DNA from: Rhodococcus pseudokoreensis
Lineage (GTDB): Bacteria; Actinomycetota; Actinomycetes; Mycobacteriales; Mycobacteriaceae
Assembly (NCBI RefSeq): GCF_017068395.1
Contig: NZ_CP070618.1
Coordinates: 1-64,000 of the forward strand
Direction of reading: 5' to 3'
Length of the DNA stretch: 64,000 bases
Positions 33,911 through 55,940 of this stretch are shown here, piece by piece. The translations under genes and the position numbers were made by a program. The notes below the pieces were generated by a model. That model worked only from the letters and a program-made list of their open reading frames with translations, was not told the origin of the DNA and ran no database searches. Each line of letters opens with the position of its first letter. Within the stretch, counting starts at the first letter, position 1.

Positions 33911-34691
33911 TTACGCGTCGTGAATCCGCTGCCATACTCCCGTGGACTTCAGCTACTCATTGGGCGCGTGATTTTCGCAGTCGCAGGCCGAGTCACACAT
34001 GCGTCTGTAGGGGAACAGAATCCTCGCCACGCTTACTTGTTGCACCGCGGGCATGGCCAGACCATCAACACGCATCGGAGCGTAGGCGCACAGTGCGATG
34101 AGCTAGCACAACTCAGATTGACCACCTACCCGGCGAGCAGGTGCATTTCCGGTATGCGCACATAACCTGGTCGTCGAACTATTTTGTGGCAGGGCCGCTA
34201 AGAGCTCTTGCCGCTCGACAGGCTGGGTGTCCGAGATCCCAGTGCTCAGCGCCACTTTCACAGTTGGCCACAGCATGACAAGCTGGCGGTGACTTGAAGC
34301 TGGAGACACAGCTTGGCCAACCGCCTCCACTAAGGCCACCGGAGACTCCACCCAGGCTACTTAATTCCGCCATACGGAATTTTTTTCCGTCAAACGAAAT
34401 GAACCCTTGCGATTGACAAACTCATGGCATAACGTTTTCTTCCGACACCATGGCCAGACCAACGCTCGGCCGGTTCTACGTAGAACCATGAGATTGAGAT
34501 TCGCCCACAAACGCTGGCGGTTGTCTCGCCGAGCGTCACACACCGCGATATGAGGAGATCCCGATGGGCCGTGAGCGGCTCGATCGACGGGGTTTCGCCT
34601 CCTGGAACCGAACCATCTCGCCTCCGTTGGCGCGTCCAATTTGGCCCGCCCCGTTTGGGTACCGCCAGGTACCTCTGTCTAGGAAGGAACG
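33911..34691. other. Intergenic upstream of the FAD-linked oxidase gene
   Basis: No gene seen. It holds the paired IclR-type palindromes at 34364-34400 and a TTGACA at 34413-34418 just after them; a matching -10 box is not clear. The 290-bp leader to the oxidase start is long. Confidence 0.4.
34364..34400 (+). promoter_or_regulatory. Paired IclR-type operators
   Basis: ATTCCGCCATACGGAAT (34364-34380) is a perfect 6-bp dyad with a 5-bp spacer. TTTCCGTCAAACGAAAT (34384-34400) is a close second copy, centre to centre 20 bp away, on the same helix face. The same palindrome recurs at 44547-44583, 51897-51934 and 52214-52230. Confidence 0.6.
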
Positions 34692-36326
34692 ATGAACACT
34701 ATGACTGAGGAACACCTCGACAGACGGAAGCGGAAGTTCTGGGGGTGGGGCTATGCAGACACGAGTGTCAGCGACTCGGAGATTCTCGAAATCGGGGGCA
34801 TGCTTCGGGACAAGTTCGGGCTCCGACTCCGCGAGCTGGCCAAGGCCCCCGACATCAGCGAAATCGAACTGCGGGAGCCGCGAGTCCACGCGCCGGAATC
34901 GCTGGCCGGAATCTGTCAGAACGACACGTGGGCGCGAGCCGAGCACACTCTGGGCAAGAATCTGGGCGACTTCGTCCGTGGGTTGGCCAAACAATTCGAC
35001 AACCCACCGGATTTCGTCGCGTTCCCACGTACTGAACACGATGTTGTCTCTGTGCTCGACTGGGCCCACACCAACGACGTCGCAGTCGTTCCGTACGGCG
35101 GGGGGTCCTCCGTAGCCCAGGGCATTGAGCCGATCGTGTCCGATGACTACCGCGGCGCAATCAGCCTCGACCTGCGGCACCTGAACCGAGTGCTGGAGAT
35201 TGACCGGGCTTCGCGGTCGGCGCTGATCCAGGGTGGCGTCCTGGGACCCGACATGGAGAACCAGCTTCGACCACACGGATTGTCGATGCGGTTCTTCTTG
35301 CAGGCCTTTGAATTCTCTACCCTCGGCGGGTGGATTGCGACCAGGGCAGCGGGACACTTCGCCACTGGATTCACCCAGATCGACGACTACGTTCAAGCCA
35401 TGCGTGTAGTGACCCCTTCAGGAACACTGCAAACCGGACGCATTCCTGCCGACGGGGCAGGGGTTTCGCCCGACCGCATGTTTATCGGTTCCGAGGGCAC
35501 GCTTGGCGTCATCACCGAAGCGTGGATGCGGCTGCAGGACAAGCCGACGTTCAAGGTCGCCACATCGGTGCCGTTCAGTGACTTCGACAAGGCCGTAGAC
35601 GCCATCCGTGCTCTTGCTCAATCCGGTCTCGCACCGACCAACTGCCGACTGCTCGACCCAACAGAAAGCCTGCTGTCCGGCGCGTCGGACGGCTCCGACT
35701 CGATCCTGGTCCTCGCCTTCGAGTCGGCCGACCATCCCTTGGATACATGGATGCAACGTGCCGCTCAGATCTGCGCCGACCACGGTGGCCGGGTTAGCGC
35801 TGAAGCGTTACAAGGTCGTTCGGCGCCCGAAGCCGGCCACGCCGGCGCTGCCGGCAAATGGCGAAACTTCTTCGTGCGCGGCCCGCACTACAAGGAGGGC
35901 TACTCCCGCATGGGCGTACTACGAGAAACCTTTGAGACCGCGTGCACATGGAGCGCGTTCCCCGAGCTTCATGCACGGGTGATGCAGGCGACGACCGAGG
36001 CCGTTAAGCGCGAGTGTGGCGACGGCGTCGTCGCGTGCCGTTTCACCCACGTCTATCCCGACGGCCCCGCCCCTTACTACACCGTGGTGGCGTCAGCGAA
36101 GCCGGGCGGCGAACTACAGCAATGGGCCGCGATCAAACAGGCCGCATCTGATGCAGTCCTTGCCACGGGCGGCACCATCACCCACCACCACGCCGTCGGC
36201 CGCTTCCACCGCCCCTGGTATGACCAGCAGCGTCCGGAGCTGTTCACGTCAGCACTGCGTGCGGTGAAGCAGACTGTCGACCCCAACATGGTGATGAACC
36301 CTGGGGTCCTCATTGATCCGAAATAA
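34692..36326 (+). CDS. FAD-binding oxidase of the alkyl-DHAP synthase/GlcD type
   Basis: A 544-residue flavoprotein. The FAD-binding (PCMH) domain shows VPYGGGSSVAQGIEP near residues 137-151 and FSTLGGWIATRAAGHFATGF, and the C-terminal oxidase domain ends with GGTITHHHAVGRFHRPWY. The layout and N-terminal RKRKFWGWGYAD are those of alkyldihydroxyacetonephosphate-synthase-like proteins, but bacterial members usually oxidise 2-hydroxy acids. ATG at 34692 follows AGGAAGGA. It is likely under IclR control through the palindromes upstream. A hairpin terminator follows directly. Exact substrate unknown. Confidence 0.8.
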   Translation: MNTMTEEHLDRRKRKFWGWGYADTSVSDSEILEIGGMLRDKFGLRLRELAKAPDISEIELREPRVHAPESLAGICQNDTWARAEHTLGKNLGDFVRGLAKQFDNPPDFVAFPRTEHDVVSVLDWAHTNDVAVVPYGGGSSVAQGIEPIVSDDYRGAISLDLRHLNRVLEIDRASRSALIQGGVLGPDMENQLRPHGLSMRFFLQAFEFSTLGGWIATRAAGHFATGFTQIDDYVQAMRVVTPSGTLQTGRIPADGAGVSPDRMFIGSEGTLGVITEAWMRLQDKPTFKVATSVPFSDFDKAVDAIRALAQSGLAPTNCRLLDPTESLLSGASDGSDSILVLAFESADHPLDTWMQRAAQICADHGGRVSAEALQGRSAPEAGHAGAAGKWRNFFVRGPHYKEGYSRMGVLRETFETACTWSAFPELHARVMQATTEAVKRECGDGVVACRFTHVYPDGPAPYYTVVASAKPGGELQQWAAIKQAASDAVLATGGTITHHHAVGRFHRPWYDQQRPELFTSALRAVKQTVDPNMVMNPGVLIDPK

Positions 36327-36330
36327 ATAA

Positions 36331-36349
36331 CCGGCCGGGCTTGGGCCGG
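36331..36349 (+). terminator. GC hairpin after the FAD-linked oxidase
   Basis: CCGGCC (36331-36336) pairs with GGCCGG (36344-36349) across a 7-base loop, starting 4 bp after the stop codon. There is no U tract, as is common in actinobacteria. Confidence 0.55.
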
Positions 36350-36937
36350 GGCGCGTCAGCGTCCCGCCCAACTTGGGTGGCACACGCTTCGCAATATTCC
36401 CACGCATCCTGGATAGGTACGCACGAAAGAACTGGTCTAGCAAGGGAAGTCACCATGCCCAGCGGATCTACCCCGACGACCAGTTGGCAACCCCGCATTG
36501 GATGCGCGAAGCATGCGACGCGTCACCCTGGGCGTGCGCAATAGAGGAGCGGAGTACGTGGCGCGTCCCTTTGATGCCGTAGTCAGGCACGGCGTCGAGT
36601 GATTCGACGACGCAATCTAGGGATACCTCGCGCGGTATCGGAGCCGCGTTCCCAATCCCACTGAGGACCGTTCGGTCAACGTGCCTGCGCATACGCAGCA
36701 TTTACCGTGTCATGCATCCGTCTCTCGGGCATATTCTGTTCGGCCATTTCGTTGAAGTGGTCTCCTCGAAAACCGCTGTCGCGCTGTCAGTTGCGGACCG
36801 ACATGGATCACAGCTGGCCAGCTAGACACCCGCAACCGAACCTCGAACGAATTGCCGCGAAACCTCACTACAGCCTCCACAGGTACAGCCGATCACCGCT
36901 CGCGAACCCTCCTGTCTGGCAGTTCTGCCGCACGATG
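36350..36937. other. Intergenic, no gene seen
   Basis: No convincing frame on either strand between the terminator and the short frame at 36938. Confidence 0.35.
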
Positions 36938-37090
36938 GACCATCCTGCCGCCATCGGTTGGATCACCGATTTCGAAGTGCACCGATGGAACGGAGCCGAT
37001 GCTTACCCAGCTCGGTGGCTGCTGCAGCCTCACGAGCAACTGGAGCGGATCGAGGTCATCACGACCTACCCCCGCCCGAATGCGAATTAG
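36938..37090 (+). CDS. Possible small protein or gene remnant
   Basis: A 50-codon frame (MDHPAAIGWITDFEVHRWNG...) with GC-rich third positions and a strand-rich end (LERIEVITTYPRP). It may be the C-terminal piece of a lost gene. No ribosome site is evident. Confidence 0.25.
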   Translation, partial: DHPAAIGWITDFEVHRWNGADAYPARWLLQPHEQLERIEVITTYPRPNAN

Positions 37091-37226
37091 AAACATACTG
37101 AACAGTCACCTATCGCCGTTCAAAGTGAGCCACCGGGCCCGGTGCTTAGCAAGTTACGGCGGCCTCGCAGGCCGTGCAAAACTGAACAGTACAAGCAAAC
37201 TCCTACCGAATTCAGGCGGTGATGAA

Positions 37227-38792
37227 GTGCCATTCTTCGATCTTCTAGTCAATGCGTGTGAGCAGAACCCGGGGCGAATCGCCGTTCGCTGCGACAATGA
37301 GGCCTCCTCATTCTCAGAACACTTTTCCCGGATCAGTCGGGCTGCACACCTCCTTCGCATGACCTTAGGCCTGGCCTCCAATGACCGCTTTGCAATTTTA
37401 TCCCGCAACTCCGTCGACTACTTGGAGCTTATCCACGCCTCACTTCTGGGCGCGGCAATAGTTGTACCCTTGAATGTCCGATCATCTGAACCCGAACTTG
37501 CGGCCGTCCTCCGGGATGCGGGGTGCCGGGCCCTCTTCTTTAGCGATGAATTCTGCGGTGTGGCGCAACGACTCAAAGACGTCACGGAAGTCGAGCACAT
37601 CATCCAGATCGGAGATAGTCAACCCTCCTACACCGCCTATCGCGGCTTAATACAGGAAGCGACGGAATGGCTTCCCAAGCGTCCAGATGGATCCGATACT
37701 GCGTTCATCATGTACACCAGCGGTACAACTGGGAGAGCGAAGGGAGTCGTCATAGAACACGCCGCGATGGCCAACGATATCTATAAAACCGGAATAGTGA
37801 CGACCCTCACCCAAGGCTATACATTTTTACTCCATGCTCCCCTGTTTCATATAGCCTCAATACGGGGCTTCGGTCTCGCCCCTGCCACCGGCTCAACGGT
37901 CGTGCTTTTGCCTCGATTTGATCCGCCGCGCATCATTCAAGAGATCAAAGCGCACGATGTGAATACAACAAGTTTCATCGCTTCTACGGTCAGAAACATG
38001 CTCGAACTTCCTGGATTCCATGGCACGGCATTGCCCAGTCTCACAACGATCGGATACGGCAGCGCTCCGATGCATCCCGCAGTTCTCCGCCGACTGATGA
38101 GCGCTTTTCCCAAGGCAGAGTTTGTCAATTGGTACGGCATGACTGAGACGTGCGGTCACGTGAGCGTCCTCAACGGACTGGACCACAAGCTTGGTGGTCG
38201 CCGGCTCACGTCATGCGGACGCGCCATGCCGGGGATCGGCGTCCGGGTCATCGACGAGGCCGGCTTGCCCGTCAGTCACGGCACCGTCGGTGAGATTACG
38301 GTGTCTGGTGACAACCTGATGCGCGGATACTGGAATCAACCCCCGCTGAAGACAGATCATACGGGCACCTCGTGGTATCCGACTGGAGATGCCGGCTATC
38401 TCGATGATGACGGATACTTGCACTTGGTGGGCAGGATCCGAGACATGATTATCACCGGTGGCGAGAATGTGGCGCCCGGCGAGGTGGAAGCTGCGCTCTG
38501 TAACCACCCTGAGGTCCATCAGGCAGTGGTCTTCGGTATGGACGACCTCAAATGGGGTGAGGCTGTGTACGCCTGCGTGTCCGCTCCGGCAAATGCTCAG
38601 ATAAGTTCTGACCAACTTCGAGCACACTGCCGGACCCAGTTGGCCGGATACAAGGTTCCAAAAACCATCAGTATCCAGCACAATCCATTCCCTATGAGCG
38701 GCTCCAATAAGATTGACCGAAACCTGGTGAAATCTCTTTATACGCAGAGCTATCCCGACAAGACCAACACACACGGTCATCGAGATGACTGA
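37227..38792 (+). CDS. AMP-forming acyl-CoA synthetase
   Basis: A 521-residue adenylate-forming ligase that would activate a carboxylic acid to its CoA ester. Motifs are FIMYTSGTTGRAKGVVIEH (AMP loop), NWYGMTETCG, WYPTGDAGYLDDDGYLHLVG and GRIRDMIITGGENVAPGEVE, with the C-terminal catalytic lysine in MSGSNKIDRNLV. The best start is GTG 37227 (VPFFDLLVNA...); residues upstream in frame are not family-like. GC content is lower than in the gcl block. The acid it activates is unknown; the hydroxy-acid context is suggestive only. Confidence 0.85.
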   Translation: MPFFDLLVNACEQNPGRIAVRCDNEASSFSEHFSRISRAAHLLRMTLGLASNDRFAILSRNSVDYLELIHASLLGAAIVVPLNVRSSEPELAAVLRDAGCRALFFSDEFCGVAQRLKDVTEVEHIIQIGDSQPSYTAYRGLIQEATEWLPKRPDGSDTAFIMYTSGTTGRAKGVVIEHAAMANDIYKTGIVTTLTQGYTFLLHAPLFHIASIRGFGLAPATGSTVVLLPRFDPPRIIQEIKAHDVNTTSFIASTVRNMLELPGFHGTALPSLTTIGYGSAPMHPAVLRRLMSAFPKAEFVNWYGMTETCGHVSVLNGLDHKLGGRRLTSCGRAMPGIGVRVIDEAGLPVSHGTVGEITVSGDNLMRGYWNQPPLKTDHTGTSWYPTGDAGYLDDDGYLHLVGRIRDMIITGGENVAPGEVEAALCNHPEVHQAVVFGMDDLKWGEAVYACVSAPANAQISSDQLRAHCRTQLAGYKVPKTISIQHNPFPMSGSNKIDRNLVKSLYTQSYPDKTNTHGHRDD

Positions 38793-39160
38793 CATCAAGG
38801 CTGTCGAAGCATCGAAATCGGCGGTAGTGCGTGCCCCTACGGCAGGTCCAGACTTCTCACTGGGCCGGGCGCCAAATCCAATCATGGTCGGCCATTGCCG
38901 GACTGTGGGCGCCATTTCGCCTCTGCGGCGGCGCTGAATCTGACGCCATTGCACTCAAGACTCCGTGACCCACCCATTACGATCACCAGCGACGTCGACA
39001 ACCCACTGTGCGGGACGTAACAGTGCCGCAGCGTTACAGCCGCACAACGTGCCACGGCAGCAACGTGGCGCAATGGGATGCGACTTTGAGGCATTGGGCG
39101 GTCGTGGTCGCCCGATCTCGCTGGTCGCGACGCACCCGGTGCACCGGAGCCGAGCCGGCG

Positions 39161-39200
39161 TCTCGTCTCGTCTCGTCTCGTCGCGTCGCGTCGCGTCGCG
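39161..39200 (+). repeat. Pentanucleotide microsatellite (TCTCG)4(TCGCG)4
   Basis: Four TCTCG units (39161-39180) run directly into four TCGCG units (39181-39200), about 155 bp before the iclR-type gene start. Confidence 0.95.
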
Positions 39201-39304
39201 TCCGAGCGTTGCCGAGACGGTGACCAGGGCGTCGTCACCTAGGCTCCAGCCCTTCCCGGATGACACGCCCGAATACTTTCGGCCTATCGTGCAGTGAGTG
39301 TATT

Positions 39305-39321
39305 TTTTCACTAGACGGAAT
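39305..39321 (+). promoter_or_regulatory. Weak IclR-type half-palindrome
   Basis: TTTTCACTAGACGGAAT has a good right half (CGGAAT) and a partial left half, 35 bp before the start of the IclR gene. It suggests autoregulation. Confidence 0.35.
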
Positions 39322-39355
39322 CCGCAGACAGCCGGGCAAGTACGGAGGTGAGAAG

Positions 39356-40126
39356 GTGGCAAGTACGCCAGGTGCGTCAGGCGGCGTCCAATCCGTCGAC
39401 CGGATTTTCGACCTGCTCGAGGCGATGGCGGCTGCCGAGGGATCAGTAGCTCTGAGCGAACTCGCCGACCGCACGAAACTACCCCCTCCGACCGTGCATC
39501 GCTTGATCCGCTCTCTGGTCAGCCGAGGCTACGCTCGGCAGTTGCCTGGCCGCAGATATGCGCTCGGTCCCAAGCTCATTCCGTTAGGTGAATCCGCAAC
39601 AAAGCGGATCGGCGCCTGGGCGGCGTCGCATTTGTCGGACCTCGTGGCCAGCACCGGAGAAACCGCGAACATGGCAGTGCTCGACGGGAGCATGGCCGTA
39701 TACGTGGCCCAGGTGCCATCCCCTCACACAATGCGCATGTTCACTGAGGTAGGTCGGCGCGTGCACTTGCACTGCACTGGCGTGGGCAAAGCACTCCTTT
39801 CTCAGTTGCCGGACGACACCGTCCGGCAGTTGATAGGCCGGGTGGAGATGCTCGCGTACACCCCCAACTCACATACCAATATCGACGCCTTACTCGCCGA
39901 TCTTGCTGAGAGTCGGCGGCGCGGATATTCGGTCGACGAAGGCGAACAGGAGATCGGGGTGCGGTGCTTCTCCGTACCAGTGCTCAATGCTCCGACACCG
40001 ACTGCGCTGTCGATCTCGGGTCCGGCTGCTCGGCTCAGTATCGAGTCGGCGGACCACAACGCTCCCCTGCTACAGCGGATTGCTACGGAGTTGTCCGCGG
40101 AATTCGGCAAGGGCACGGCGCGCTAG
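39356..40126 (+). CDS. IclR-family regulator
   Basis: A 256-residue regulator. The N-terminal winged helix reads GGVQSVDRIFDLLEAM, VALSELADRTKLPPPTVHRL and GYARQLPGRRYALGP. The effector domain follows (GETANMAVLDGSMAVYVAQV, HCTGVGKALL, EGEQEIGVRCFSVPV). GTG start at 39356 has a GGAGGTGAG site; the upstream frame is not protein-like. It is a close paralogue of the regulator at 58000-58776. IclR proteins of this subtype (AllR-like) sense glyoxylate-related molecules, which fits the gcl genes here. A likely target is the CGGAAT palindrome. Confidence 0.88.
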   Translation: MASTPGASGGVQSVDRIFDLLEAMAAAEGSVALSELADRTKLPPPTVHRLIRSLVSRGYARQLPGRRYALGPKLIPLGESATKRIGAWAASHLSDLVASTGETANMAVLDGSMAVYVAQVPSPHTMRMFTEVGRRVHLHCTGVGKALLSQLPDDTVRQLIGRVEMLAYTPNSHTNIDALLADLAESRRRGYSVDEGEQEIGVRCFSVPVLNAPTPTALSISGPAARLSIESADHNAPLLQRIATELSAEFGKGTAR

Positions 40127-40331
40127 CTGTTGCACGGCGGCGGACGGCCCATAAATGCGACCGGGAGGGTGCTATGCCTTGCTCGAGTCGGCCAACTGGA
40201 ACGTCACGGAAACTCGCCTGTCGTTGTACTCGCTGACATCGATCGGGAAGGCACTCGCAAAATTTCCGGAGAGGGCCCGGCCCATCAAGCGGGCCCCGAC
40301 GGGCAAGTCCACGGGATAGATCCCCGCGGGT

Positions 40332-40631
40332 TTACGGGATCGGTGAGGAACCGCGCCGGCGGTGCGGATACGCGTTCAGCAAACTGCGTATCTCGGCTTC
40401 GGAACAGGTCGACTCAGGGATGACCTGCCACAATCTGTCGAGGAACCGGCGCCGCGTCATCCCGAACTGCGTAAGGACTTCCTCCTCGCACGCGCCCCCG
40501 TACGGCGCCCACATGCTGGCGAACCCGATGAGGCGCTCAGCCTCGCCGTCAGGATGGATGTGTTTGCGGTTTGCTTCGATCCAACCGGCGCGGCGCCTCT
40601 GGCGCAATTGACGATACTCACGAGAGTTCAC
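40332..40631 (-). CDS. DUF3263-like small protein
   Basis: A 99-residue protein with the DUF3263 pattern: an N-terminal basic helix (REYRQLRQRRRAGWIEANRK), then LIGFASMWAPYGGACEEEVL and FGMTRRRFLDRLWQVI. These actinobacterial proteins resemble small helix-turn-helix domains but have no known role. A second member lies in the pyk operon at 56162. The C-terminus (NAYPHRRR...) is short and basic. Confidence 0.65.
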   Translation of the reverse strand: MNSREYRQLRQRRRAGWIEANRKHIHPDGEAERLIGFASMWAPYGGACEEEVLTQFGMTRRRFLDRLWQVIPESTCSEAEIRSLLNAYPHRRRGSSPIP

Positions 40632-40764
40632 GGGACTTCACCTCTGATCGTACCGAGCAGGCCCTCGGAATTGGGGTGTCCTCGCCGAAGCGAGGGTATC
40701 TACAGGGAATGCCATTTTGTCCTCGCCCTCACCGTCAAGTCTCTGACCTTGCGCTGCACCAGGG

Positions 40765-41452: not shown

Positions 41453-42751
41453 TTACCATAGATCCAGCGAGCGAGTGAAGATCGAGGCGAGGTCCTCATC
41501 ATGGACCTCGCATGGTGCAGCGGCTAGCACACGTTGCTGCATCAGTGCGCCCTCGACGAGTGCGTCGACGTCGGAGGATTTGTAGCCGACCTCGGCGATC
41601 CCGTTGGGGATGCCAATATCACACATGAGCGCAGTGAGTACGTCCGGCAGGAACGAGCTCAAGTCGTTGGGCTTGTCAGCATCGGGCGCGAGGAGCGAGG
41701 CGGCACGGAGGTGTCGCTCGGGAGCTGTGGAGAAGGTGAACCGGAAAGCCTCGGGCGCGGTCAGGGACACGGCCATGCCGTGCGGCACCATCGGCTTGTC
41801 GGCCGGGTAATCCTTGGCGTTGTAGTCCTTCACTCGTCCAGCGATTGGGTATGCGTTGGCGTGCGGGATGTGTACGCCGGCATTTCCGAAACCGAGGCCG
41901 GCGAAAGTGGCTGCGAGCGCCATCGAAGCGCGTGCGTCCTCATCGTCGCCGTCGAGCACCGCCCGCCTGAACGAGGTGGACATCAGCATGAGGGCCTTTT
42001 CTGCCCACATGTCCGAGATGGGGTTGGAACCGCAGTAGGGAACGCGTTGCTCCGGACGCTTCCGTTCGTAGGCCATGTACGGCCGCGCGGTAAGGCTCTC
42101 CAGTGCATGGCACAAGATGTCCATGCCGGAGGAAGCAGTGACGCCAGACGGCTGGCTAATGGTGAGTTTGGGATCAACCACGGCCAGGGTCGGGCGTAGG
42201 CGAGCGTGACTGATTCCGGTCTTCACCTTCAGATCCAGCACATCGAGCACACAGATTGTGGTGCTCTCGGCGCCGGTACCCGTCGTGGTCGGAACGGCGA
42301 CGAGGGGTTTGAGTGGCTGATCCGGGGAAACGCCCCGGCCTACTGGCGAATTGACGTAGTCCATCAGGTCACCGCCATTGGTGGTGAGTAGGTTAATCAC
42401 CTTGGCTGTATCGATACTCGATCCGCCACCGACTGCAATGAAGGCATCCCACGGACCTGTGTCACGGGCGTATGCGATCGCTTGCTCGAGACTGGCATCG
42501 GTTGGTTCCACGTGGACGCCGTCGTAGACAATCGCATCGATGCCAAACTCGTTGATTCGTTCAGCTACCCGCTGCGGGATCCCGGCAGCGGCGACCCCGG
42601 GGTCAGTAACGACCAGGACGCGCTTCGCGCCTGTCAGGCTGAGGTCGAAGCCAATTTCGTCCGCGGCACCTGGTCCATATTTCAACAGGGGCGCACCATA
42701 GGTGAAGACGCTTTCGGGGTTGGCCGGCAGGATCTGCGATTGGGTTTTCAT
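41453..42751 (-). CDS. Iron-dependent alcohol dehydrogenase, hydroxyacid-oxoacid transhydrogenase type
   Basis: A 432-residue group III (iron-type) dehydrogenase. The NAD-binding motif is AFIAVGGGSSIDTAK, and metal-ligand segments are SSGMDILCHALES, HIPHANAYPIAG and VPHGMAVSL. Overall length and the YERKRPEQRVPYCGSNPISD insertion fit the hydroxyacid-oxoacid transhydrogenase (ADHFE1) branch, which turns 4-hydroxybutyrate plus 2-oxoglutarate into succinate semialdehyde plus D-2-hydroxyglutarate. The MHS transporter before it on the same strand and the semialdehyde dehydrogenase across the intergenic region support this. An ordinary alcohol dehydrogenase role cannot be excluded. Confidence 0.8.
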   Translation of the reverse strand: MKTQSQILPANPESVFTYGAPLLKYGPGAADEIGFDLSLTGAKRVLVVTDPGVAAAGIPQRVAERINEFGIDAIVYDGVHVEPTDASLEQAIAYARDTGPWDAFIAVGGGSSIDTAKVINLLTTNGGDLMDYVNSPVGRGVSPDQPLKPLVAVPTTTGTGAESTTICVLDVLDLKVKTGISHARLRPTLAVVDPKLTISQPSGVTASSGMDILCHALESLTARPYMAYERKRPEQRVPYCGSNPISDMWAEKALMLMSTSFRRAVLDGDDEDARASMALAATFAGLGFGNAGVHIPHANAYPIAGRVKDYNAKDYPADKPMVPHGMAVSLTAPEAFRFTFSTAPERHLRAASLLAPDADKPNDLSSFLPDVLTALMCDIGIPNGIAEVGYKSSDVDALVEGALMQQRVLAAAPCEVHDEDLASIFTRSLDLW

Positions 42752-42818
42752 ACGCTCTCTTTCTCGGTAGATGGGATTTCTCAGTGGGTGCTCATCCAGG
42801 CTGCTGAGGCATCGCGGC

Positions 42819-44165
42819 TCAGGCCTGCGATGGTGTGGTCCGTCCAGGAACCTCCCTCAGGCTGATCCCCGCGGTTTCTCTCGAGACGGCAAGCGCGATC
42901 AGTGACACAACCGCGCCACCGATCAAGTAAAAGGCAGGTGCACTGCCGTTTCCAGTCACTGCGACCAGCCATGTTGCGATGAACGGTGCAGTTCCGCCGG
43001 CTAGCGCAGCTGCCGCGTTGTATCCGATGGCCATCGAGGTGAAGCGGGTCTGCGTCGGGAACATTTCGACCATCATGGCGAACACGCACGCCGAGTACAT
43101 GCCGAAGATGATTCCGAGTATCACCTGACACAACACGACGGCAACCAATCCGCCGGTGTTCATCCAGGCGAAGATCGGGTAGGAAAGAGCCATGTAACCG
43201 ACTGCAGCAAGGGCCATTACAGGCTTACGCCCAAAGCGATCTGAGCTACGAGCGGCGACCGGCGTGACAGCGATTTTCACCAGCAATGCAATCACGACGA
43301 TGAAATACGCGCTCCCTGCAGGTAGCCGACCGCTTTCCTCGAGGTGGTTGGGCAGGTAGGCAAGAATCAAGTAGTACGGCACCATGTGGGTAACCGCGAT
43401 TCCGGTGCAGCGCAGAATTGCGCCACCCTCCTGCCGTACTGCTTCCCGCAGTGGTGACTTCGCTCGTTTTCCGGCAGCCACGACCTCCTGGAAGATCGGA
43501 GATTCGTCGACACGCAGGCGGAGGAACAGACCGACGAGTCCAATCGGCCCCGCGATGAGGAACGGTATGCGCCATGCCCAGTCGTCCATGGCGGTGTCAC
43601 CGAGCGAAGTCGCCAGAAACGCCACCACTGATGCACCGATCAGCGGTCCTGCATTGGCTGCCATCTCACCGAAGCCGACAATGTAATTTCGCTTGCGCAC
43701 GGGGGCGTGCTCAGCAAGGAAAGCAACCGCGCCGGCAAGTTCGCCACCGGCAGACAGGCCTTGCAGTAGGCGTAGCACGAGGAGCAGGACTGGCGCGGCA
43801 ATTCCTATTGCCGCGTACCCCGGTAGGAGTCCGATCAAGCACGTCGAACCACTGATGAGCAAGATAACGACGGCAAGGGTGTTTTTTCGGCCAATTCGGT
43901 CGCCGATGTAACCGAACAGAACACCACCGAGCGGACGGATGAGGAATGACACGGCGAATGCTGCGTATGCCGACAACAGAGCGGCGTTACGGTCTTCGCT
44001 GGGGAAGAACACAGCTCCGACGCTGCCCGCGAGGTAGCCGTAGATTGCATAGTCGTACCATTCGACGCCTTGTCCGATCGCCGCGCCGAAAATGACTCGT
44101 CGCATGCTCTGTGTATCGACTGACTGTGGTGCCGAACGGACAGTCCGGGCGGATTCGCCGGGCAT
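42819..44165 (-). CDS. MHS-family metabolite:H+ symporter
   Basis: A 448-residue MFS permease of the metabolite:H+ symporter group (ShiA/KgtP/ProP-like). Signatures are GVEWYDYAIYGYLAG, YIGDRIGRKNTLAV, RLLQGLSAGGELAGA and RSSDRFGRKPVMAL. ATG at 44163-44165 is preceded by AAAGGAGTCAGC. It lies 67 bp upstream of the dehydrogenase gene and shares its transcript, so it probably imports the organic acid that the dehydrogenase uses. Confidence 0.88.
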   Translation of the reverse strand: MPGESARTVRSAPQSVDTQSMRRVIFGAAIGQGVEWYDYAIYGYLAGSVGAVFFPSEDRNAALLSAYAAFAVSFLIRPLGGVLFGYIGDRIGRKNTLAVVILLISGSTCLIGLLPGYAAIGIAAPVLLLVLRLLQGLSAGGELAGAVAFLAEHAPVRKRNYIVGFGEMAANAGPLIGASVVAFLATSLGDTAMDDWAWRIPFLIAGPIGLVGLFLRLRVDESPIFQEVVAAGKRAKSPLREAVRQEGGAILRCTGIAVTHMVPYYLILAYLPNHLEESGRLPAGSAYFIVVIALLVKIAVTPVAARSSDRFGRKPVMALAAVGYMALSYPIFAWMNTGGLVAVVLCQVILGIIFGMYSACVFAMMVEMFPTQTRFTSMAIGYNAAAALAGGTAPFIATWLVAVTGNGSAPAFYLIGGAVVSLIALAVSRETAGISLREVPGRTTPSQA

Positions 44166-45191
44166 GCTGACTCCTTTAGTAGGCCAATGCTTCTCGTTGC
44201 GAACTTGGCGAGAACGTTGACTTAGATTGCGAAGGGTTTCCCCAGCTGGGGCGGGACGATGACGCAACCCGCCCAAGCACGGCCGACCGGTTGTCTCGAA
44301 TCAACGGGGACCCAGATGTTCATCACCATATGTTCGACAGCATGTGTCACAGCATTCAGCGCTGCCATGAAACAGCGGCGGATGTGGTCGCACCAGCCCA
44401 TGCGCGGCGATACCGCTCGCATAACCCCGCACCTCCTAGTGGCGAAGGAAGAGTAACAAGAACCACACGACCGGCCCGAAGCAGGTCTGGCCATCAGCTG
44501 GTGTTCCACACGCTATGCCATGGATCACATCACCCGCAAGGGTCAATTTCAAATGATGGGAACTCTTTTCCATAATGCGAAAGACCTGTGAAGTGTTCGT
44601 TGCAACCTCTAACTGACAATTGGCGGGTCCTGGTGCGAACCATAAGGACGTCCGCGAGGGCCAACGCGGGCATCCCGCAGGGCCGCCCTGTCCTCGATTC
44701 ACCTCGCATAGTGCAGAAAGTTCCTCAGGTGTCTGTCAGCATGCGTGGCCGCCGCACGGACTACCTATTGCTCAACGTGTATCGCGTCGGTACGCCATGG
44801 ACCTCGGCGAATTGTTTGGGCCGATAGGATTTCGATGCATGTCTGCTGCGATGCCCGATCACAGAGCGCTGCGCCAGCTCGTATCAGTACATCACTCTGT
44901 TCGACCACTAGCTGCGCGTGCTGGTGCCATCTGCTAACGGCTCGCGAGTTTGCCTTGCGTCTTGACGATATGAATCCTAGTCTTCCCATCGAGATGATGG
45001 TCTGGCCATAATGTTGGAACGCGTACGTCCGGATCTGACGACGTCTACGGGGCCAGGACAGCTTCGTGGAGGCCTGCGCCGCAGGCCCACGTGAGCCTTT
45101 GGTCAAGAGGGCTCGGGCTTGAGCTGACTGAAAATACCTCCACCGATTGTGATGGGGGATCCGCCAATAGCACTGCAAAAAAAGGAGAACG
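44166..45191. other. Divergent intergenic region with IclR-type sites
   Basis: No gene seen in 1 kb. It separates the minus-strand transporter operon from the plus-strand aldehyde dehydrogenase and carries the paired palindromes at 44547-44583. Confidence 0.4.
44547..44583 (+). promoter_or_regulatory. Paired IclR-type operators
   Basis: TTTCCATAATGCGAAA (44567-44582) is a good match to the palindrome, and TTTCAAATGATGGGAA (44547-44562) is a weaker one; their centres are 20 bp apart. They could control the transporter operon, the aldehyde dehydrogenase, or both. Confidence 0.45.
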
Positions 45192-46568: not shown

Positions 46569-47242
46569 CCATGGCAGGCGGCCCCTCAGGCCCCGGAGGT
46601 GACCCTGCAGCGACAAACCTGACTTAAGCCCCAAGTGGATGGCACTTCCCAATCGCGGTGGCGGCGTGCAGCGCCCAGGAGGCCGCGATACGAAGTCAAC
46701 AGCCAAGTCGCGCTCTACGCAGACTTGCTGGCGGGCGTCCTCAGGCACTCGGCGGCGCACACCACCGCTGCAGCAGTGCGGCATCGAGACCCGTGGGACG
46801 CCTGCCTCCACTTGAACGGGGCACTCCTTCGATTGCATCCTCGCGTCGCCCCCCTGTCGCCGAGGCGGTCGCGGCTGCTGCTGTTGCTGACGCAGACGAA
46901 CACCGAGTGCCGATGATCAGCACGCCACCTGCAGCTGCCGGAATACCTGGTGCGCTCGCGCCGATCGCGATGCCGCTTGCACCATTGGCGACCTGTGCCG
47001 GGACCAGACGATCGGTGCGTCGTTCCGGCGCCGGCAGATCACCACAACATCGCCGTCTGGCCTCCCGCCACTGCGCCGAGGTGTAACTGATGCGCCAACA
47101 TGCGCCGTACTCGTGGCCCAGTTCCCTGCGCGAAGAGGGGCATCGCTGGGCCTCGCGGAGCGATGATCGGTGCAGGTCGAGGTGCCCCCGAGGTGGCACT
47201 GCGAGCCACCGAACGTTCCGATCGATCGTGACGCGACTTTCA
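46569..47242. other. Intergenic, no gene seen
   Basis: Open frames on both strands are of shadow quality. Nothing recognisable lies between the aldehyde dehydrogenase and the GntR promoter. Confidence 0.35.
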
Positions 47243-47285
47243 TTGTCAGTGAGGCAAACTCGTGTTTAGATACTAGTTGTGTCTA
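47243..47285 (+). promoter_or_regulatory. GntR promoter with overlapping operator
   Basis: TTGTCA (47243-47248) and TAGATA (47267-47272) are 18 bp apart. TAGATAC-TAGTT-GTGTCTA (47267-47285) is an imperfect dyad over the -10 and the start codon, well placed for autorepression. The predicted transcript start falls near the GTG at 47279, so the message may be leaderless. Confidence 0.5.
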
Positions 47286-47920
47286 TGCGAACGGTGTCCG
47301 ACCTGGTGTACTCGACTGTCAAGGAACTCATCTTGTCGGCCGAACTTCCGGGCGGCGAGCTGATCAGCGAAGGTGACATCGCCAATCAGGTGGGCACGAG
47401 TCGGACACCGGTTCGTGAAGCATTTCTTCGGCTCGAAGCCGAAGGATGGATGAAGTTGTTTCCGAAGCGCGGCGCATTGGTCGTTCCGATCGCGGACGGC
47501 GAGGCCGAGCACATCGTTGAGGCGCGGCTGCTAGTCGAGGCCGGGAGTTTATGTGCCATTAGATCCGATGCAGGGCGTCGTGAGGACGCCGCGGCGGAAA
47601 TGCGCGCCAGCGTGATTCGCCAGCTTGATCTTGCCAAGTCCGCCGATCGTGCAGCGTTCACAGGAGAGGACGCCGATTTCCATTCGGTGGTAGTGCGGTA
47701 CGGCGCCAACCCCCTGCTCGCGGCGTTCTACATAGGCCTTCGCGACCGACAGCGCCGTATGACGGCATGCTCGGTCGGCAGGGATCCGATGCAGCTCGAT
47801 CGAGTCTTCGCCGATCATGCCCAGCTTGCGAGCTTTGTCGAACACGGGCAGGTCGAGGAGTTCAAGTCTTTGCTCGGTCGCCATATGCGTGAGGTTCATC
47901 AACTGACTGGGGGACGATAG
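47279..47920 (+). CDS. GntR-family (FadR subgroup) regulator
   Basis: A 213-residue repressor. The N-terminal winged helix is seen in LVYSTVKELILSAELPGGEL and VGTSRTPVREAFLRLEAEGW. The FCD effector domain has ARLLVEAGSLCAI, the metal-ligand pair in DADFHSVVVRYG and HAQLASFVEHGQVEEFKSLL. GTG 47279 or ATG 47285 may be the start. Such regulators often sense organic acids; candidate targets are the aldehyde dehydrogenase upstream and the glycerate kinase/oxidase operon. Confidence 0.85.
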   Translation: MSMRTVSDLVYSTVKELILSAELPGGELISEGDIANQVGTSRTPVREAFLRLEAEGWMKLFPKRGALVVPIADGEAEHIVEARLLVEAGSLCAIRSDAGRREDAAAEMRASVIRQLDLAKSADRAAFTGEDADFHSVVVRYGANPLLAAFYIGLRDRQRRMTACSVGRDPMQLDRVFADHAQLASFVEHGQVEEFKSLLGRHMREVHQLTGGR

Positions 47921-49015
47921 TTCTGCAGCAGCTGCCGAAGTACCCTTGTGAGCACGCCGAATCCCAGTCGGTCACCTTTGCTACCGCGGCGATGCTCGGG
48001 TGCGGAATAACGCTAGTCTTCGAGCGCATACAGCGGCACGGCGGATCTCACGGAACCACAGCAGTCTAATCGCTGACACACGTCGGATCCGTGCCGGCAC
48101 CCGCCGCCCGACAATCCAATGTGGCGCTGGCGAAGCGGCTTGAGAGCTGCTATTTGGGACAACATCCTTTTCAACTGTGAAGAACGCTTGTAGGACTCAA
48201 CGGAGTTGACCGCGGTTGCACTTCAGTGAGTGAGTGACTGATCTACATACATAACGCGATGCGTTTCGGCCGGTGCATTTTCGAACTGAAACTCGCTATA
48301 CAACTCGTTTTGTGCTCCCGCTGTCACAGCCAACCATCTCATGTTGACTCGTCCGATGGCGATGCTCGTAACGATTCCGTTGAGCAGAGCCGTGGCGCGA
48401 CGGGGTGCGAACAGACTGATGCACGCAATTGCAGCTTGAATTAAGAGAAACGGCACTTGGAAGACCTCCCGGGTCTGCATCGCGGGACGGGTCGGGTCAT
48501 ACAGGCCCACCGACGCCGGTTGATGTTCGGTTCGGTGTCATCGGTCAGGATCCGGGTCAACAAGGTGGCAAGCTGGATCGAGTCCTACGCGGGAGCCCTC
48601 TGGACACCTCGTGAACGGAGGAATACGACTGGTATCGCCCTGGATCAGAATGAATCTCAGAAGACCTTGAGGATATACTAGTTCCTCGGATTGCCCGATC
48701 ACGTCCATAATTTGCGTTGATGACGTCGGGAGCATTGGTTCTGAATCACGCTCCTTCCGACTGCGCACTCCCCTATTACCGAGATACGAGTTCGGGACCC
48801 ACCTGGCCGACGTAACTGCAGGATTCTGTTTCGCGCGGCACACTCCCCAGGTTGCGGTGGAGTCCATGAGTACCAGGGCCGCTCTAAACCGACGCCAGTG
48901 AGGACACTAGGTTCGATTTTCACAGGGGTAAAGGAACAGATTCCGGGTGAGTGCTCAGATCTGGTGAAGGTGCCGAGCTGATGGGAATCTTGGTTCGGAG
49001 AACTCCCGACAATTC
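47921..49015. other. Intergenic, no gene seen
   Basis: About 1.1 kb of lower-GC sequence between convergent genes (GntR and the glycerate kinase). Short frames on both strands have no ribosome sites or recognisable products; it may be decayed mobile DNA. Confidence 0.35.
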
Positions 49016-50155
49016 TCACGATCGATCGAGCGCGAGCAGATAGTTGGCCGCCAAATCTTCGGCGGCTGAGGCGATCAGATCTGCAGCGTCCGCCATCGAC
49101 CGTGTTACGTCCGGTTCGCGGTCCTGTAGGGAGTAGATCGCGGAAAATTCGGAAGCCGCCTGCTCTTCTGGGGAAAGGCGTGACACTCCCACAATGGCGT
49201 ATGTCGGAACGTCATGAGCAGTGGCATGAAGGCGCACCCCAATCGGGGCTTTGCCGTGCAAGGACTGGTGATCGAGGGAGCCCTCACCAGTGATGACAGC
49301 GCACGCGCCGTCGAGGTGCTGATCGATGTCCACCAGGTCGAGAATAAGCTCAATTCCGGAGCGGAACTCCGCTTGCAACACGGTCATTGCAGCGAATCCT
49401 ACTCCACCGGCCGCCCCTGCCCCCGGGTTGTCGCGGGCATCGCGCCCTGTGGCCGCTGCAACTCGGTCGGCCCAATGTGCTAATGCGGCATCGAGTTCGG
49501 CAACCTGGGTGGGGGTGGCGCCTTTTTGTGGTCCGTAGACTGCGGCGGCACCAGTGGGGCCACACAGTGGGTTGTCCACGTCACTTGCAAGGATGATTTT
49601 CGCGTGTCCGAGTCCCGGGTGCAACCAGGACACATCCAGCATCGTCGCTTGAGACAGGGCGCCACCTCCGTCTGGGATCGGGCTCCCGTGAACGTTGACG
49701 ACTTCGGCGCCAAGTGCACGCAGAAAGCCGGCTCCGCCGTCGGTGCAGGCACTGCCACCGATACCGAGCACTATCTCCCGGCATCCGTCGTCGAGGGCAC
49801 GGGCGACGACCGTGCCCAGACCACGGCTTGAGGCGGTCAGAGGACGCAGTACCCCGCCGGAAAGGCGGTGCAGGCCAGAGATGTCTGCCATTTCGACGAC
49901 GGCGAGTGTGCCTTTCCGCGCGTAGGCAGTCAGCGTCCTCTGTCCGGTTGGCCCGGGCGCAGCCACAGGGATCCTCTCAAAGCCTGCCGCCAGAGCAGCG
50001 GCGAGGGTTCCCTCGCCTCCGTCCGCGATCGGGCACTCGATAGTCCGGATCGTCGGATCGCACCGCTGAATGCCTCGACTGATCTGCGCCGCGGCGTCTG
50101 CCGCAGAGATCGACCCCTTGAATTTGTCGGGAGCGACGACGACATGACCGGGCAT
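49016..50155 (-). CDS. glxK: Glycerate 2-kinase
   Basis: A 379-residue type II glycerate kinase (GlxK/GarK family), making 2-phosphoglycerate from glycerate. Signatures are VVAPDKFKGSISAADAA, PIADGGEGTLAAAL, VLGIGGSACTDGGAGFLRAL and ITGEGSLDHQSLHGKAPIGV. Length is normal. It is 99 bp downstream of the GlcD-like oxidase on the same strand. It supplies the step between tartronate semialdehyde reductase (53217) and enolase/pyruvate kinase (56434) in the glycolate route. Confidence 0.93.
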   Translation of the reverse strand: MPGHVVVAPDKFKGSISAADAAAQISRGIQRCDPTIRTIECPIADGGEGTLAAALAAGFERIPVAAPGPTGQRTLTAYARKGTLAVVEMADISGLHRLSGGVLRPLTASSRGLGTVVARALDDGCREIVLGIGGSACTDGGAGFLRALGAEVVNVHGSPIPDGGGALSQATMLDVSWLHPGLGHAKIILASDVDNPLCGPTGAAAVYGPQKGATPTQVAELDAALAHWADRVAAATGRDARDNPGAGAAGGVGFAAMTVLQAEFRSGIELILDLVDIDQHLDGACAVITGEGSLDHQSLHGKAPIGVRLHATAHDVPTYAIVGVSRLSPEEQAASEFSAIYSLQDREPDVTRSMADAADLIASAAEDLAANYLLALDRS

Positions 50156-50254
50156 CTCAGATCACCATCCAGTTCAACATTCGGCGAGGCGGGACGCAGC
50201 GATCATCGCTCCAGATGAGCGATCCCTTAACTGAAGCGGAGTCAGAGCGAAACA

Positions 50255-51628
50255 TCAGATCACGGCTCCCGGGTTCAGGATGTGCTGCGGGTCCAGCGCG
50301 GACTTGATGCGCCGGGTCAGCTCCATGACGTCCTCGCCGATCTGGTTGGGAAGCCATCCCTTTTTCAGCCGGCCAACGCCGTGCTCACCGGTGATGGTGC
50401 CACCGAGCGAGATCGCAAGATCCATGATTTCGCCGAAGGCGAGGTTCGCACGTGCGGTCTCATCTTCGTTGGTGGGGTCGTGCACGATCAGCGGATGGGT
50501 GTTGCCGTCGCCGGCATGGGCGATGACGGCCACGAGCAGCTTGTGTCGGGCCGCAATGTCCTCTATGCCGTGGATGAGCGCGGGTAGAGCGGGGAGCGGG
50601 ACACCTACATCTTCGAGGAGAAGGTTGCCCAACCGCTCGACGGCTGGGATCGCGAACCGTCGCGCTGCGGTGAAGGCTTCGCCCTCTTTCGGGTCGTCGG
50701 TTGTAAAAACGTCGGAGGCGTTGTTGTCGTGGAACACCTTGGCCATGAACTCGGTTGCCCGGATTCGGTCTTCACCGGGTGAGTCGGACTGGGCAATAAG
50801 CATGCCGTGTGCGTTGAGGTCGAGGCCCATGTTCATGCCACTCTCGACGGCGCCGATGGAGGCCCGGTCCATGAACTCGAGCATGGCCGGACGCATCACC
50901 CTGGTGATGTCCAAGATCGCGTTCGTCGCGTCCTGCACGGTGGCGAAGGATCCGACCACGGTGCTTGCCGGCGCCTGTTCAGGTAGAAGTCGGATTGTGA
51001 TCTCGGTGATGATGCCAAGAGTGCCTTCGCTGCCCACGAATAGCTTGGTCAGCGACAGACCCGCCGAGTCCTTGAGACGTGGGCCTCCGAGTCGGACGGC
51101 CGTGCCGTCGGCCAGAACGACCTGCAGGCCGAGGATGTAGTCGGTGGTCACTCCGTATTTCACGCAACACAATCCGCCGGCGTTGGTGGCGGCATTGCCA
51201 CCGATCGAGCACATCTCGAATGACGAGGGGTCCGGCGGGTACCACAGTCCGTGTTCGGCTACTGCGCGCTTTACCTCGACGTTGATCAGCCCAGGCTGCA
51301 CAACGGCCATCCGCGTCACCGGATTGACCTCGATGTTGCGCATCAACTCGGTTGTCAGGACGATTCCGCCATCGACAGCTGTCGCGCCTCCCGACAGACC
51401 CGATCCAGCGCCGCGCGGAACGACGGGGATGTTATGCGCGGTTGCCCATCGCATAACCGCTTGGACGTCCTCAGTGGACGTGGCACGAACGACGGCCAGT
51501 GGACGGCCGGCGTCGGGATCGCGTGCCCAGTCCCGCCGGTAGCTCTCGGTCACATCGGGGTCGGTGATGATGGACGCGTTGGGTATCTGTGTCTGCAGGT
51601 CGCCCAGTCGCTCATCTGTCACAGTCAT
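50255..51628 (-). CDS. FAD-linked glycolate/2-hydroxyacid oxidase, GlcD-like
   Basis: A 457-residue FAD-binding oxidase. FAD motifs are VVPRGAGSGLSGGATAVDGG and CSIGGNAATNAGGLCCVKYG, and the C-terminal FAD-linked oxidase domain has IAHAGDGNTHPLIVHDP and GTITGEHGVGRLKKGWL. It matches GlcD and D-2-hydroxyacid dehydrogenases. The start is the ATG at 51626-51628 behind CAAGGAGATCCG; codons upstream do not look coding. It forms an operon with glycerate kinase and is transcribed away from hyi-glxR-gcl. It likely makes glyoxylate from glycolate, perhaps without GlcE/GlcF partners. It is separate from the glcD at 61894. Confidence 0.88.
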   Translation of the reverse strand: MTVTDERLGDLQTQIPNASIITDPDVTESYRRDWARDPDAGRPLAVVRATSTEDVQAVMRWATAHNIPVVPRGAGSGLSGGATAVDGGIVLTTELMRNIEVNPVTRMAVVQPGLINVEVKRAVAEHGLWYPPDPSSFEMCSIGGNAATNAGGLCCVKYGVTTDYILGLQVVLADGTAVRLGGPRLKDSAGLSLTKLFVGSEGTLGIITEITIRLLPEQAPASTVVGSFATVQDATNAILDITRVMRPAMLEFMDRASIGAVESGMNMGLDLNAHGMLIAQSDSPGEDRIRATEFMAKVFHDNNASDVFTTDDPKEGEAFTAARRFAIPAVERLGNLLLEDVGVPLPALPALIHGIEDIAARHKLLVAVIAHAGDGNTHPLIVHDPTNEDETARANLAFGEIMDLAISLGGTITGEHGVGRLKKGWLPNQIGEDVMELTRRIKSALDPQHILNPGAVI

Positions 51629-51896
51629 CGGATCTCCTTGATCAAGGTGGTGCCAGCCGGGCCGGAGGACGCATTTCGGACGGGTTTGCTTTCGGGGCGG
51701 GTGCTTCCGGTATGGAGCCACCTCAAAGGACTGGTGATCAGCGACGGTCGGCAGGCATCTAGCGCATTCTGCGGCTCGATCCTGGGAGTACCGACGCACT
51801 TGTGTGCCATCGTCCGAACCTCGATTTCATCGAGATTCATCTTTGAGAGTGCTGGCGAAAGCTGCGGCGATTTCGTCAGCTACCCCATACCACGAG

Positions 51897-51934
51897 TTTC
51901 CGTAATTCGAGAATATACTTTCGCATTACGAGAC
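51897..51934. promoter_or_regulatory. Paired IclR-type operators between divergent glycolate operons
   Basis: TTTCCGTAATTCGAGAA (51897-51913) and CTTTCGCATTACGAGAC (51918-51934) have spacers centred 21 bp apart. They lie about 270 bp upstream of the oxidase-kinase operon start. The rest of 51629-52360 contains no gene. Confidence 0.5.
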
Positions 51935-52213
51935 TGGCAGCGTTTCTCTCCGATGTCAATACCCGCGGTTCTTCGCCCGGCTACGACGAAGTTCAAGCCC
52001 GCCGCTCACGATTGCCTTGCAACGCAGGTGTTTCAGGATTCCGTCGAGGTGCCTTGAGAGTGCAACTCCAGCGCGCCTCGACAACGTGGACGTTGAACCG
52101 CGACGGGGTCCTCAATGTTGCCCGACATCCTCGGTCGCGATGCTTCGCACCCAAAACCGGGTCTTGACAGACACTCCGGACCCGAGTTGACTCGAACACA
52201 TAACGGAAAAATT

Positions 52214-52230
52214 ATTCCGCATTACGGAAT
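52214..52230. promoter_or_regulatory. IclR-type operator before hyi
   Basis: ATTCCGCATTACGGAAT is a perfect 6-bp dyad with a 5-bp spacer, 130 bp upstream of hyi. A lone right half (CGGAAA at 52204-52209) lies just upstream. Its arms match the dyad at 34364 exactly. Confidence 0.6.
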
Positions 52231-53182: not shown

Positions 53183-53216
53183 TACACCACGACTTTCGAC
53201 GGAATCGAGGACACTC

Positions 53217-54137: not shown

Positions 54138-55940
<1,803 letters not shown>

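Follow-up and report, generated by a model that had tools for sequence, protein, structure and literature searches.

Which protein recognizes the short palindrome that recurs between the genes of a glyoxylate region in Rhodococcus pseudokoreensis, and what would it do at each of the promoters concerned? The region lies in a stretch of 64,000 nucleotides, here called the window, which forms bases 1-64000 of the 167-kb contig NZ_CP070618.1 (C5) of assembly GCF_017068395.1; the genome comprises 9.87 Mb in six contigs, with C6 as the chromosome. A sequence-only reading of the window had proposed a single IclR regulon linking oxidase, 4-hydroxybutyrate, glycerate kinase and gcl operons. The window motif is the published IclR type WTTYCRYW3RYGRAAW, and the palindromes are almost certainly operators of a glyoxylate-type IclR subfamily. 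While the operator motif itself is already published as an IclR type, the two promoter geometries in which we find it are new here. The explanation as a whole, which comprises IclR-subfamily operators, two modes of action and a mobile module, has in our judgment a good probability.

Palindromic sites and their recurrence

Every palindrome listed in the sequence-only reading is found at its place, and all seven lie outside genes as called here, in keeping with its claim that the sites are exclusively intergenic. Those at 39305 and 52214 fall inside longer mechanical open reading frames, with the real starts placed downstream (GTG 39356 and ATG 52361). The pairing described at 20-21 bp likewise holds, with 20 bp for 34364/34384 and 21 bp for 51897/51918. 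Allowing up to three mismatches, the pattern WTTCCGYMWTACGRAAT yields seven rows in the window (five distinct places, since two palindromes are read on both strands) against 0.77 expected, a number reached in none of 100 shuffles; 51918 and 39305 are not covered by it.

For scoring, we used an own matrix of 11 sites from the R. pseudokoreensis genome and an external matrix of 20 distinct sites upstream of hyi. The latter derive from 22 of 80 external loci, which are the best 80 of 558 hyi loci from other genomes (1.50 Mb); they were picked with a window-derived consensus, a partial circularity that leaves the ranking not fully blind. With the external matrix, ranks 1-6 in the window fall to 52214, 34364, 34384, 44567, 39305 and 51897, six of the seven palindromes, and 51918 is 20th. 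The site at 39305, formerly taken for a weak copy, is thus a good one. The operator sites are:

33230..33265, - strand: tandem operator pair upstream of an Nramp-type gene, boxes 19 bp apart (main box 33249-33265, score 12.4; weak box 33230-33246, score 7.1)
34364..34380, + strand: operator, main (upstream) box of the promoter of a flavin adenine dinucleotide (FAD)-linked oxidase (rank 2, score 25.7)
34384..34400, + strand: second operator box of the FAD-oxidase promoter, at a distance of 20 bp from the main box (rank 3, score 20.5)
39305..39321, + strand: operator before the first iclR gene, putatively autoregulatory (rank 5, score 17.1)
44546..44562, - strand: operator, second box of the promoter of an MFS transporter and an Fe-dependent alcohol dehydrogenase (MFS-FeADH), from the tandem scan (score 7.5 with the external, 16.3 with the own matrix)
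44567..44583, - strand: operator, main box of the MFS-FeADH promoter, 21 bp from 44546 (rank 4, score 17.9)
51897..51913, - strand: operator of the glcD-glxK promoter, downstream of TTGACA 51959-51954 (rank 6, score 13.6)
51918..51934, - strand: second box of the glcD-glxK promoter, 21 bp from 51897, weak alone, from the tandem scan (rank 20, score 6.7)
52214..52230, + strand: operator of the hyi-glxR-gcl promoter (rank 1, score 29.6)
C5:65371-65408, beyond the window: strong box 65371 and weak box 65392, an operator pair that precedes a second set of Nramp and FAD oxidase genes; promoter and palindrome are as at 34364

Two entries are additions to the earlier set, namely 44546, the 21-bp partner of 44567, and the pair 33230/33249, whose counterpart in Mycobacterium dioxanotrophicus has a 20-bp spacing and better scores. 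The centres of the five tandem pairs on C5 are 19, 20, 21, 21 and 21 bp apart, within the 18-22 bp described for tandem IclR sites and considered consistent with tetramer binding (PMC8222616; Suvorova and Gelfand 2021). In that classification, WTTYCRYW3RYGRAAW is motif group 1, subgroup iii. With the three central bases left free, the arms of the 17-bp subgroup motif are matched without deviation at 34364, 34384, 39305, 52214 and 65371, with one deviation at 33249 and 44567, two at 44546, 51897 and 65392, three at 51918 and five at 33230. The sites thus resemble those described for subgroup iii in being 17-bp palindromes with like arms and spacing, in their tandem arrangement and in the apparent regulation of the regulator's own gene; the main text of that paper makes no mention of gcl, and we found no account of two promoter geometries there. 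We infer that an IclR dimer would occupy each 17-bp site and a tetramer the paired sites, which lie about two helical turns apart.

Sites scoring at least 16 with the external matrix number six on C5, all within its first 70 kb, against a mean of 0.18 and a maximum of 1 for 100 permuted palindromic matrices. In 300 kb of sampled chromosome there is neither a site of this score nor a tandem pair. A genome-wide control with the reversed pattern (18 versus 83 rows) is imperfect since it alters the dinucleotide content, and we rely on the permuted palindromes instead. The consensus scan of the genome that had been suggested returns nine places with at most two mismatches, namely three in the window, C5:65371, four on C6 and one on C2. 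Seven of the nine belong to glyoxylate or allantoin regions. Among those on C6, C6:3253310 precedes hyi-glxR-gcl-IclR, C6:5883250 precedes an IclR gene divergent from a dctA-hyi-glxR-gcl-glxK row, and C6:5894806 lies upstream of allantoin-permease-like and racemase-like genes.

The motif recurs at the external loci. At a score of at least 14 with the own matrix, a site lies at most 600 bp upstream of hyi in 61 of the 80 loci, a figure that, given the relatedness of the loci, does not count independent events; with 40 permuted palindromic matrices, the mean is 0.1 and the maximum 2. Across all 80 loci, 170 sites reach this score, compared with 0-10 in 10 permutations. At a score of at least 12, sites within 700 bp are assigned to hyi in 73 cases, to an AH_C-domain gene upstream of hyi in 59, to IclR genes in 52, and further to dctA (17), glxK (13), glcD (8) and an NCS1 permease (4), where one site may count for two genes. 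Six scored sites fall inside matched coding stretches at these loci. The sequence-only reading would have been refuted by a motif as frequent inside coding regions as chance predicts, and the outcome is in its favour. Among 27 site pairs 11-60 bp apart, the distance is 21 bp in 21, 22 bp in five and 28 bp in one. An IclR relative more than 50% identical is present at 51 external loci, and at 35 of these a site precedes its gene by no more than 70 bp.

The IclR paralogues and their predicted ligand

Two regulator genes of the window are candidates for reading these sites:

39356..40126, + strand: IclR-family regulator 1 (IclR1; PF09339, PF01614), with start GTG 39356 and ribosome-binding site ggaggtgag read from the sequence
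58000..58776, - strand: IclR-family regulator 2 (IclR2; PF09339, PF01614)

Both proteins contain the HTH_IclR and IclR_C domains above cut-off and are thus members of the family. The genome holds 33 IclR-family matches (E at most 1e-10), among which a search with IclR2 singles out four (100, 80, 68 and 68% identity; the next has 36%). These four close paralogues, two in the window and two chromosomal, are 64-81% identical to one another, have the recognition-helix core LPxPT[IV]HR in common and all reside at motif-bearing glyoxylate loci. One of the chromosomal proteins is 100% identical, over the aligned stretch, to a Rhodococcus koreensis protein (locus L037). The site before iclR1 has its like at L226:47417, which precedes the homologous iclR gene. 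IclR2 has only a weak site of its own (58815, score 5.5), which we do not count as a self-site. Runs of a five-base repeat (gtctc, then gtcgc) occupy 39160-39203, upstream of the iclR1 promoter.

Among the PDB matches, 2o99 stands second and 1tf1 fourth. Aligned to E. coli IclR (2o99) and compared with Table 1 of PMC11323563, the oxygen-binding residues G160, D212, S239 and S241, which IclR, AllR and BhcR all possess, are identical in IclR1 and IclR2. The pocket residues favour glyoxylate as ligand, and a glyoxylate-like ligand appears quite likely. The fifth such position, 161, is Val in both proteins, compared with Ala in IclR and AllR and Ile in BhcR (PMC11323563); further pocket positions are Thr or Ser at 143, Met at 146, Val at 154 and Val at 220. 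E. coli IclR and AllR, repressors according to the same source, are released by glyoxylate and resemble the window proteins in the four pocket residues and in target pathway (for AllR, allantoin and gcl). In contrast, their DNA motifs differ (TGGAAATNATTTCCA and KTTGGAAWAWTWTTCCAAC in E. coli), as does position 161, and the hydrophobic patch is partly changed. The equivalog cut-offs of E. coli IclR and AllR (380 and 406 bits) exceed the scores of IclR2 (169 and 119 bits) and IclR1 (155 and 94 bits). The BhcR equivalog NF045644 is the best NCBIfam match of both window proteins, yet at 189 and 191 bits they score about half its cut-off of 350. Consequently, we do not file IclR1 and IclR2 as any of these three proteins.

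Streptomyces coelicolor AllR is an IclR-type regulator of allantoin and glyoxylate genes, and the chromosomal copies of R. pseudokoreensis presumably share its role and targets. Our literature search returned no recognisable description of the present operator in actinobacteria, nor of the operator of S. coelicolor AllR.

BhcR of Paracoccus denitrificans, an IclR protein that responds to glyoxylate, is proposed to act in two ways, as repressor of its own gene and as activator of bhc; beside it, the GntR-type GlcR represses glycolate oxidase (PMC11323563). BhcR differs from the window proteins in that it controls the beta-hydroxyaspartate cycle, not gcl. An IclR protein that activates and may have two functions, next to a GntR repressor, renders a two-mode design plausible.

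Two promoter geometries and a module shared between genera

The genes and predicted promoters served by the sites are:

31410..32807, - strand: Nramp-family transporter gene (PF01566, NF037982)
34407..34435, + strand: TTGCGA-N17-TAACGT, the core promoter predicted on the downstream side of the tandem operator, with the layout of all 12 accessory promoters
34450..34462, + strand: GntR/FadR-type palindrome ATGGCCAGACCAA, from promoter alignments
34692..36326, + strand: FAD-linked oxidase (GlcD-like), 97% identical to one on an M. dioxanotrophicus plasmid
41453..42751, - strand: Fe-dependent alcohol dehydrogenase or hydroxyacid-oxoacid transhydrogenase-like gene (PF00465; annotation of its counterpart)
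42819..44276, - strand: MFS metabolite transporter gene, start uncertain (TIGR00883-like below cut-off; PF00083, PF07690)
44484..44539, - strand: predicted promoter TTGCGG-N18-TAGCGT with GntR-type palindrome, facing MFS-FeADH (promoter alignment, pattern scan)
49016..50155, - strand: glycerate kinase (TIGR00045)
50255..51799, - strand: subunit of a GlcD-type oxidase, probably starting at ATG 51628 (TIGR00387 is the best NCBIfam match, with 418 bits against a cut-off of 568)
52361..55940, + strand: hyi 52361-53182, glxR 53217-54101 and gcl 54138-55940 (TIGR03234 below cut-off, TIGR01505, TIGR01504)

In the core geometry, TTGAC lies 54-60 bp before the operator centre at 96 of the 170 external sites and 33-37 bp before it at 15, one or the other at 106. 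Three of five examined chromosomal sites of R. pseudokoreensis have TTGAC at -59, -60 and -63. The window promoters of hyi (TTGACT 52187, operator centre 52222) and glcD (TTGACA 51959, centres 51926 and 51905) are of this type. A promoter-like TTGACT-17-AATTAT at 52187-52215 overlaps operator 52214, and a promoter-like CTGCCA/TATATT overlaps box 51918.

The accessory geometry is reversed. For the stretches examined, the accessory set takes in every scored operator that precedes an FAD oxidase, Nramp or MFS gene, which gives 12 promoters: four on C5, three in M. dioxanotrophicus, four in the Pseudonocardia genome G666 and one in G638. The layout was first noticed in the alignment of the C5 and M. 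dioxanotrophicus promoters; the five Pseudonocardia promoters are independent of that alignment, and all fit. In all 12, TTGC starts 32-37 bp past the main-box centre (as TTGC[GA] in 11 and as TTGCT in the remaining one). Eleven also have a GntR-type palindrome, which begins 35-46 bp beyond TTGC; none was found at the window Nramp1. As a control, the 170 external sites were taken in both orientations: of these 340 site-orientations, seven have TTGC[GA] at this distance, none of them with the palindrome, and seven have TTGAC there. Searched without the operator, the pattern TTGCG-N16-19-TANNNT-N4-16-TGGMCWGACC has three matches in 9.87 Mb, all beside C5 operators.

The palindrome ATGGCCAGACCAA is one that we take to belong to the GntR/FadR family. 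The window contains two more of this type, 34053-34065 and 44997-45009 (ATGGCCAGACCAT and ATGGTCTGGCCAT). The latter lies about 180 bp before the succinic-semialdehyde dehydrogenase gene, a hint that this gene may answer to the GntR regulator instead. We had considered it as the target of 44567 and rejected it: the promoter points the opposite way, toward MFS-FeADH on the minus strand, which we therefore assign as the target. For the FAD oxidase mRNA, a leader of about 250 bases is predicted (34436-34691).

If transcription is taken to begin some 35 bp past the start of the -35 element, core operator centres come to lie at about +1 and +22, and the main and second boxes of the accessory promoters at about -71 and -50, respectively. 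We infer repression from the core and activation from the accessory placement. At the core promoters (hyi-glxR-gcl, glcD-glxK, the chromosomal gcl and allantoin genes), the operator lies downstream of or over the promoter, and we therefore propose that these genes would be repressed until glyoxylate arrives. At the accessory promoters (FAD oxidase, Nramp transporters, MFS-FeADH), the operator sits, as an activator site would, upstream of a poor -35 (TTGCG), mostly with a second, GntR-type operator near the predicted transcription start. That the same regulator represses core and activates accessory genes is the interpretation toward which we lean, with less assurance than for its ligand.

The accessory module is not confined to Rhodococcus. 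The counterparts of the FAD oxidase and IclR1 encoded on the plasmid of M. dioxanotrophicus PH-06 (NZ_CP020810.1) are 97% and 87% identical to the window proteins. Like that of the window, the plasmid cluster comprises Nramp, FAD oxidase, MFS, transhydrogenase, hyi-glxR-gcl-glxK and IclR genes, and its homologous promoters have operators; it differs in gene order, in an FAD/Fe-S fusion for the separate subunits and in a tandem pair before hyi, where the window has a single clear site. Its operators are 20-bp pairs at Nramp and FAD oxidase, a 21-bp pair at hyi and single sites at IclR and the second Nramp. Eight sites in the 79.6 kb examined there score at least 12 with the external matrix; permuted matrices give 0.74 on average and 5 at most. 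Among 390 genomes from another family of the order, four have the FAD oxidase at E at most 1e-200. In Pseudonocardia, where 60 kb each of G666 and G638 were sampled, both genomes have an Nramp2-FAD oxidase pair adjoining GntR/FCD and CoA-transferase genes, with operators before Nramp2. G666 additionally has hyi-glxR-gcl and glcDEF-like genes, and operators that precede its other FAD oxidase as well as two further Nramp-type genes, in one case from about 1 kb away. Megablast with IclR1 and with a stretch of G638 gave no plasmid match.

M. dioxanotrophicus PH-06 degrades 1,4-dioxane (PMC5578833), and PMC12542641, citing a 2012 study, mentions sequences upregulated in P. dioxanivorans on dioxane, which we count in favour of our explanation. 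The module, also present on plasmids of Mycobacterium dioxanotrophicus and Pseudonocardia, would likely serve the catabolism of ethers or related C2/C4 compounds to glyoxylate; a role in ether catabolism specifically is favoured to about the same degree as the dual mode. The place of the Nramp-type genes (31410-32807 and C5:65617-66945) in a glyoxylate regulon suggests an organic acid or a pathway metal as their cargo.

A third FAD oxidase paralogue (C5:76065-77672, 50% identical) has its best nearby operator-like sequence (12.0) at 78809, more than 1 kb off. Beside the catabolic region lie an ArsK-like arsenite efflux gene (2303-3529, below the family cut-off), an ArsA pump ATPase gene (11133-12911) and an IS21 transposase gene (14828-16564).

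Competing explanations

That the palindromes are chance occurrences in AT-richer intergenic DNA is supported by the weak boxes 51918, 33230 and 65392, which lie within background when scored singly. For the set as a whole, this is refuted by the shuffle and permutation controls, in line with the sites at 61 of 80 loci and the lack of tandem pairs in the sampled chromosome, and its probability is negligible. Equally negligible is a function as intrinsic terminators: a scan does flag 34363-34381 and 52214-52230 as hairpins with T runs, but the sites stand before genes and at a fixed register to promoter-like boxes, their sequences are conserved across genera and they are often paired, on which grounds we reject it. 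Binding by another family, GntR/FCD or TetR, would find support in the GntR/FCD regulator gene and the GntR-type palindrome at these same promoters. However, the motif is the IclR subgroup iii consensus and precedes IclR genes in 35 of 51 loci, and the GntR-type palindrome is a distinct element with a distance of its own; we reject this reading too and consider it very improbable.

A more serious contender holds that the IclR protein is a pure repressor everywhere, with the upstream accessory operators repressing through a loop or through contact with RNA polymerase, or with the real promoter situated elsewhere. Both E. coli proteins, IclR and AllR, act as repressors (PMC11323563), and the core sites have repressor geometry. 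The narrow operator-TTGC gap of 32-37 bp (12 of 12, versus 7 of 340) rather suits polymerase contact at a weak -35, and we regard pure repression as unlikely.

Several observations weigh against the explanation we favour. The accessory second box, about 20 bp on, scores above 12 in four of 12 promoters, 4.9-9.5 in four and at most 0.9, thus unrecognisable, in four; moreover, the accessory promoters may share descent from one duplicated cassette, hence not represent independent events. Two of the nine genomic places lie at unrelated loci (C2:278676 at pspA-like/ABC genes, C6:8568003 at lactonase-like/IS21 genes). Among the external loci, 19 of 80 have no site of at least 14 near hyi and 10 no site of at least 12 at all. 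The 60-kb stretches of G666 and G638 bear operators, and no IclR relative was found there; the closest, 49-52% identical to IclR1 with helix LPLPTIHR, is on another contig, preceded by a site at about 40 bp in G666, about 105 bp in G638 and, weakly (10), about 110 bp in G664. Of 56 loci of more distant FAD-oxidase relatives, 55 have no operator within 1.5 kb, a search that would miss operators before an earlier gene, as at L230 and L231 (operator before Nramp2); the exception, L162, scores 12.2 with the own matrix only and lies downstream. Finally, a PF02332 diiron monooxygenase is not on C5 and occurs only at C6:4.415 Mb, which leaves ether use unproven for the R. pseudokoreensis strain.

The IclR regulon itself emerges strengthened by motif class, tandem spacing, recurrence at hyi-gcl, proximity to IclR genes and the four paralogues. 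What the sequences show directly is the sites with their conservation, spacing, promoter geometry and linkage to genes, from which binding, ligand, activation and substrate are predicted. Of the proposed unity of oxidase, 4-hydroxybutyrate, glycerate kinase and gcl operons, the regulon stands, except that 44567 faces MFS-FeADH and not succinic-semialdehyde dehydrogenase. In the most extended form of our explanation, which we give about even chances, one glyoxylate-sensing subfamily would act as repressor at ancestral gcl/allantoin promoters and as activator at the mobile module. A GntR/FCD operator near +10, present at most of the module's promoters, would provide the second input of a two-signal plasmid gate in Rhodococcus, Mycobacterium and Pseudonocardia, in which a chromosomal regulator may be used in trans.

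These results provide a testable regulatory map of glyoxylate-forming catabolism in actinobacteria, from glycolate and allantoin to, probably, cyclic ethers such as the groundwater pollutant 1,4-dioxane. Nramp-like transporters, an FAD oxidase, an MFS carrier and a transhydrogenase-like enzyme, all poorly understood partners, are predicted as pathway members. A mobile module that carries such operators could plug into the metabolite sensor that its host already possesses.

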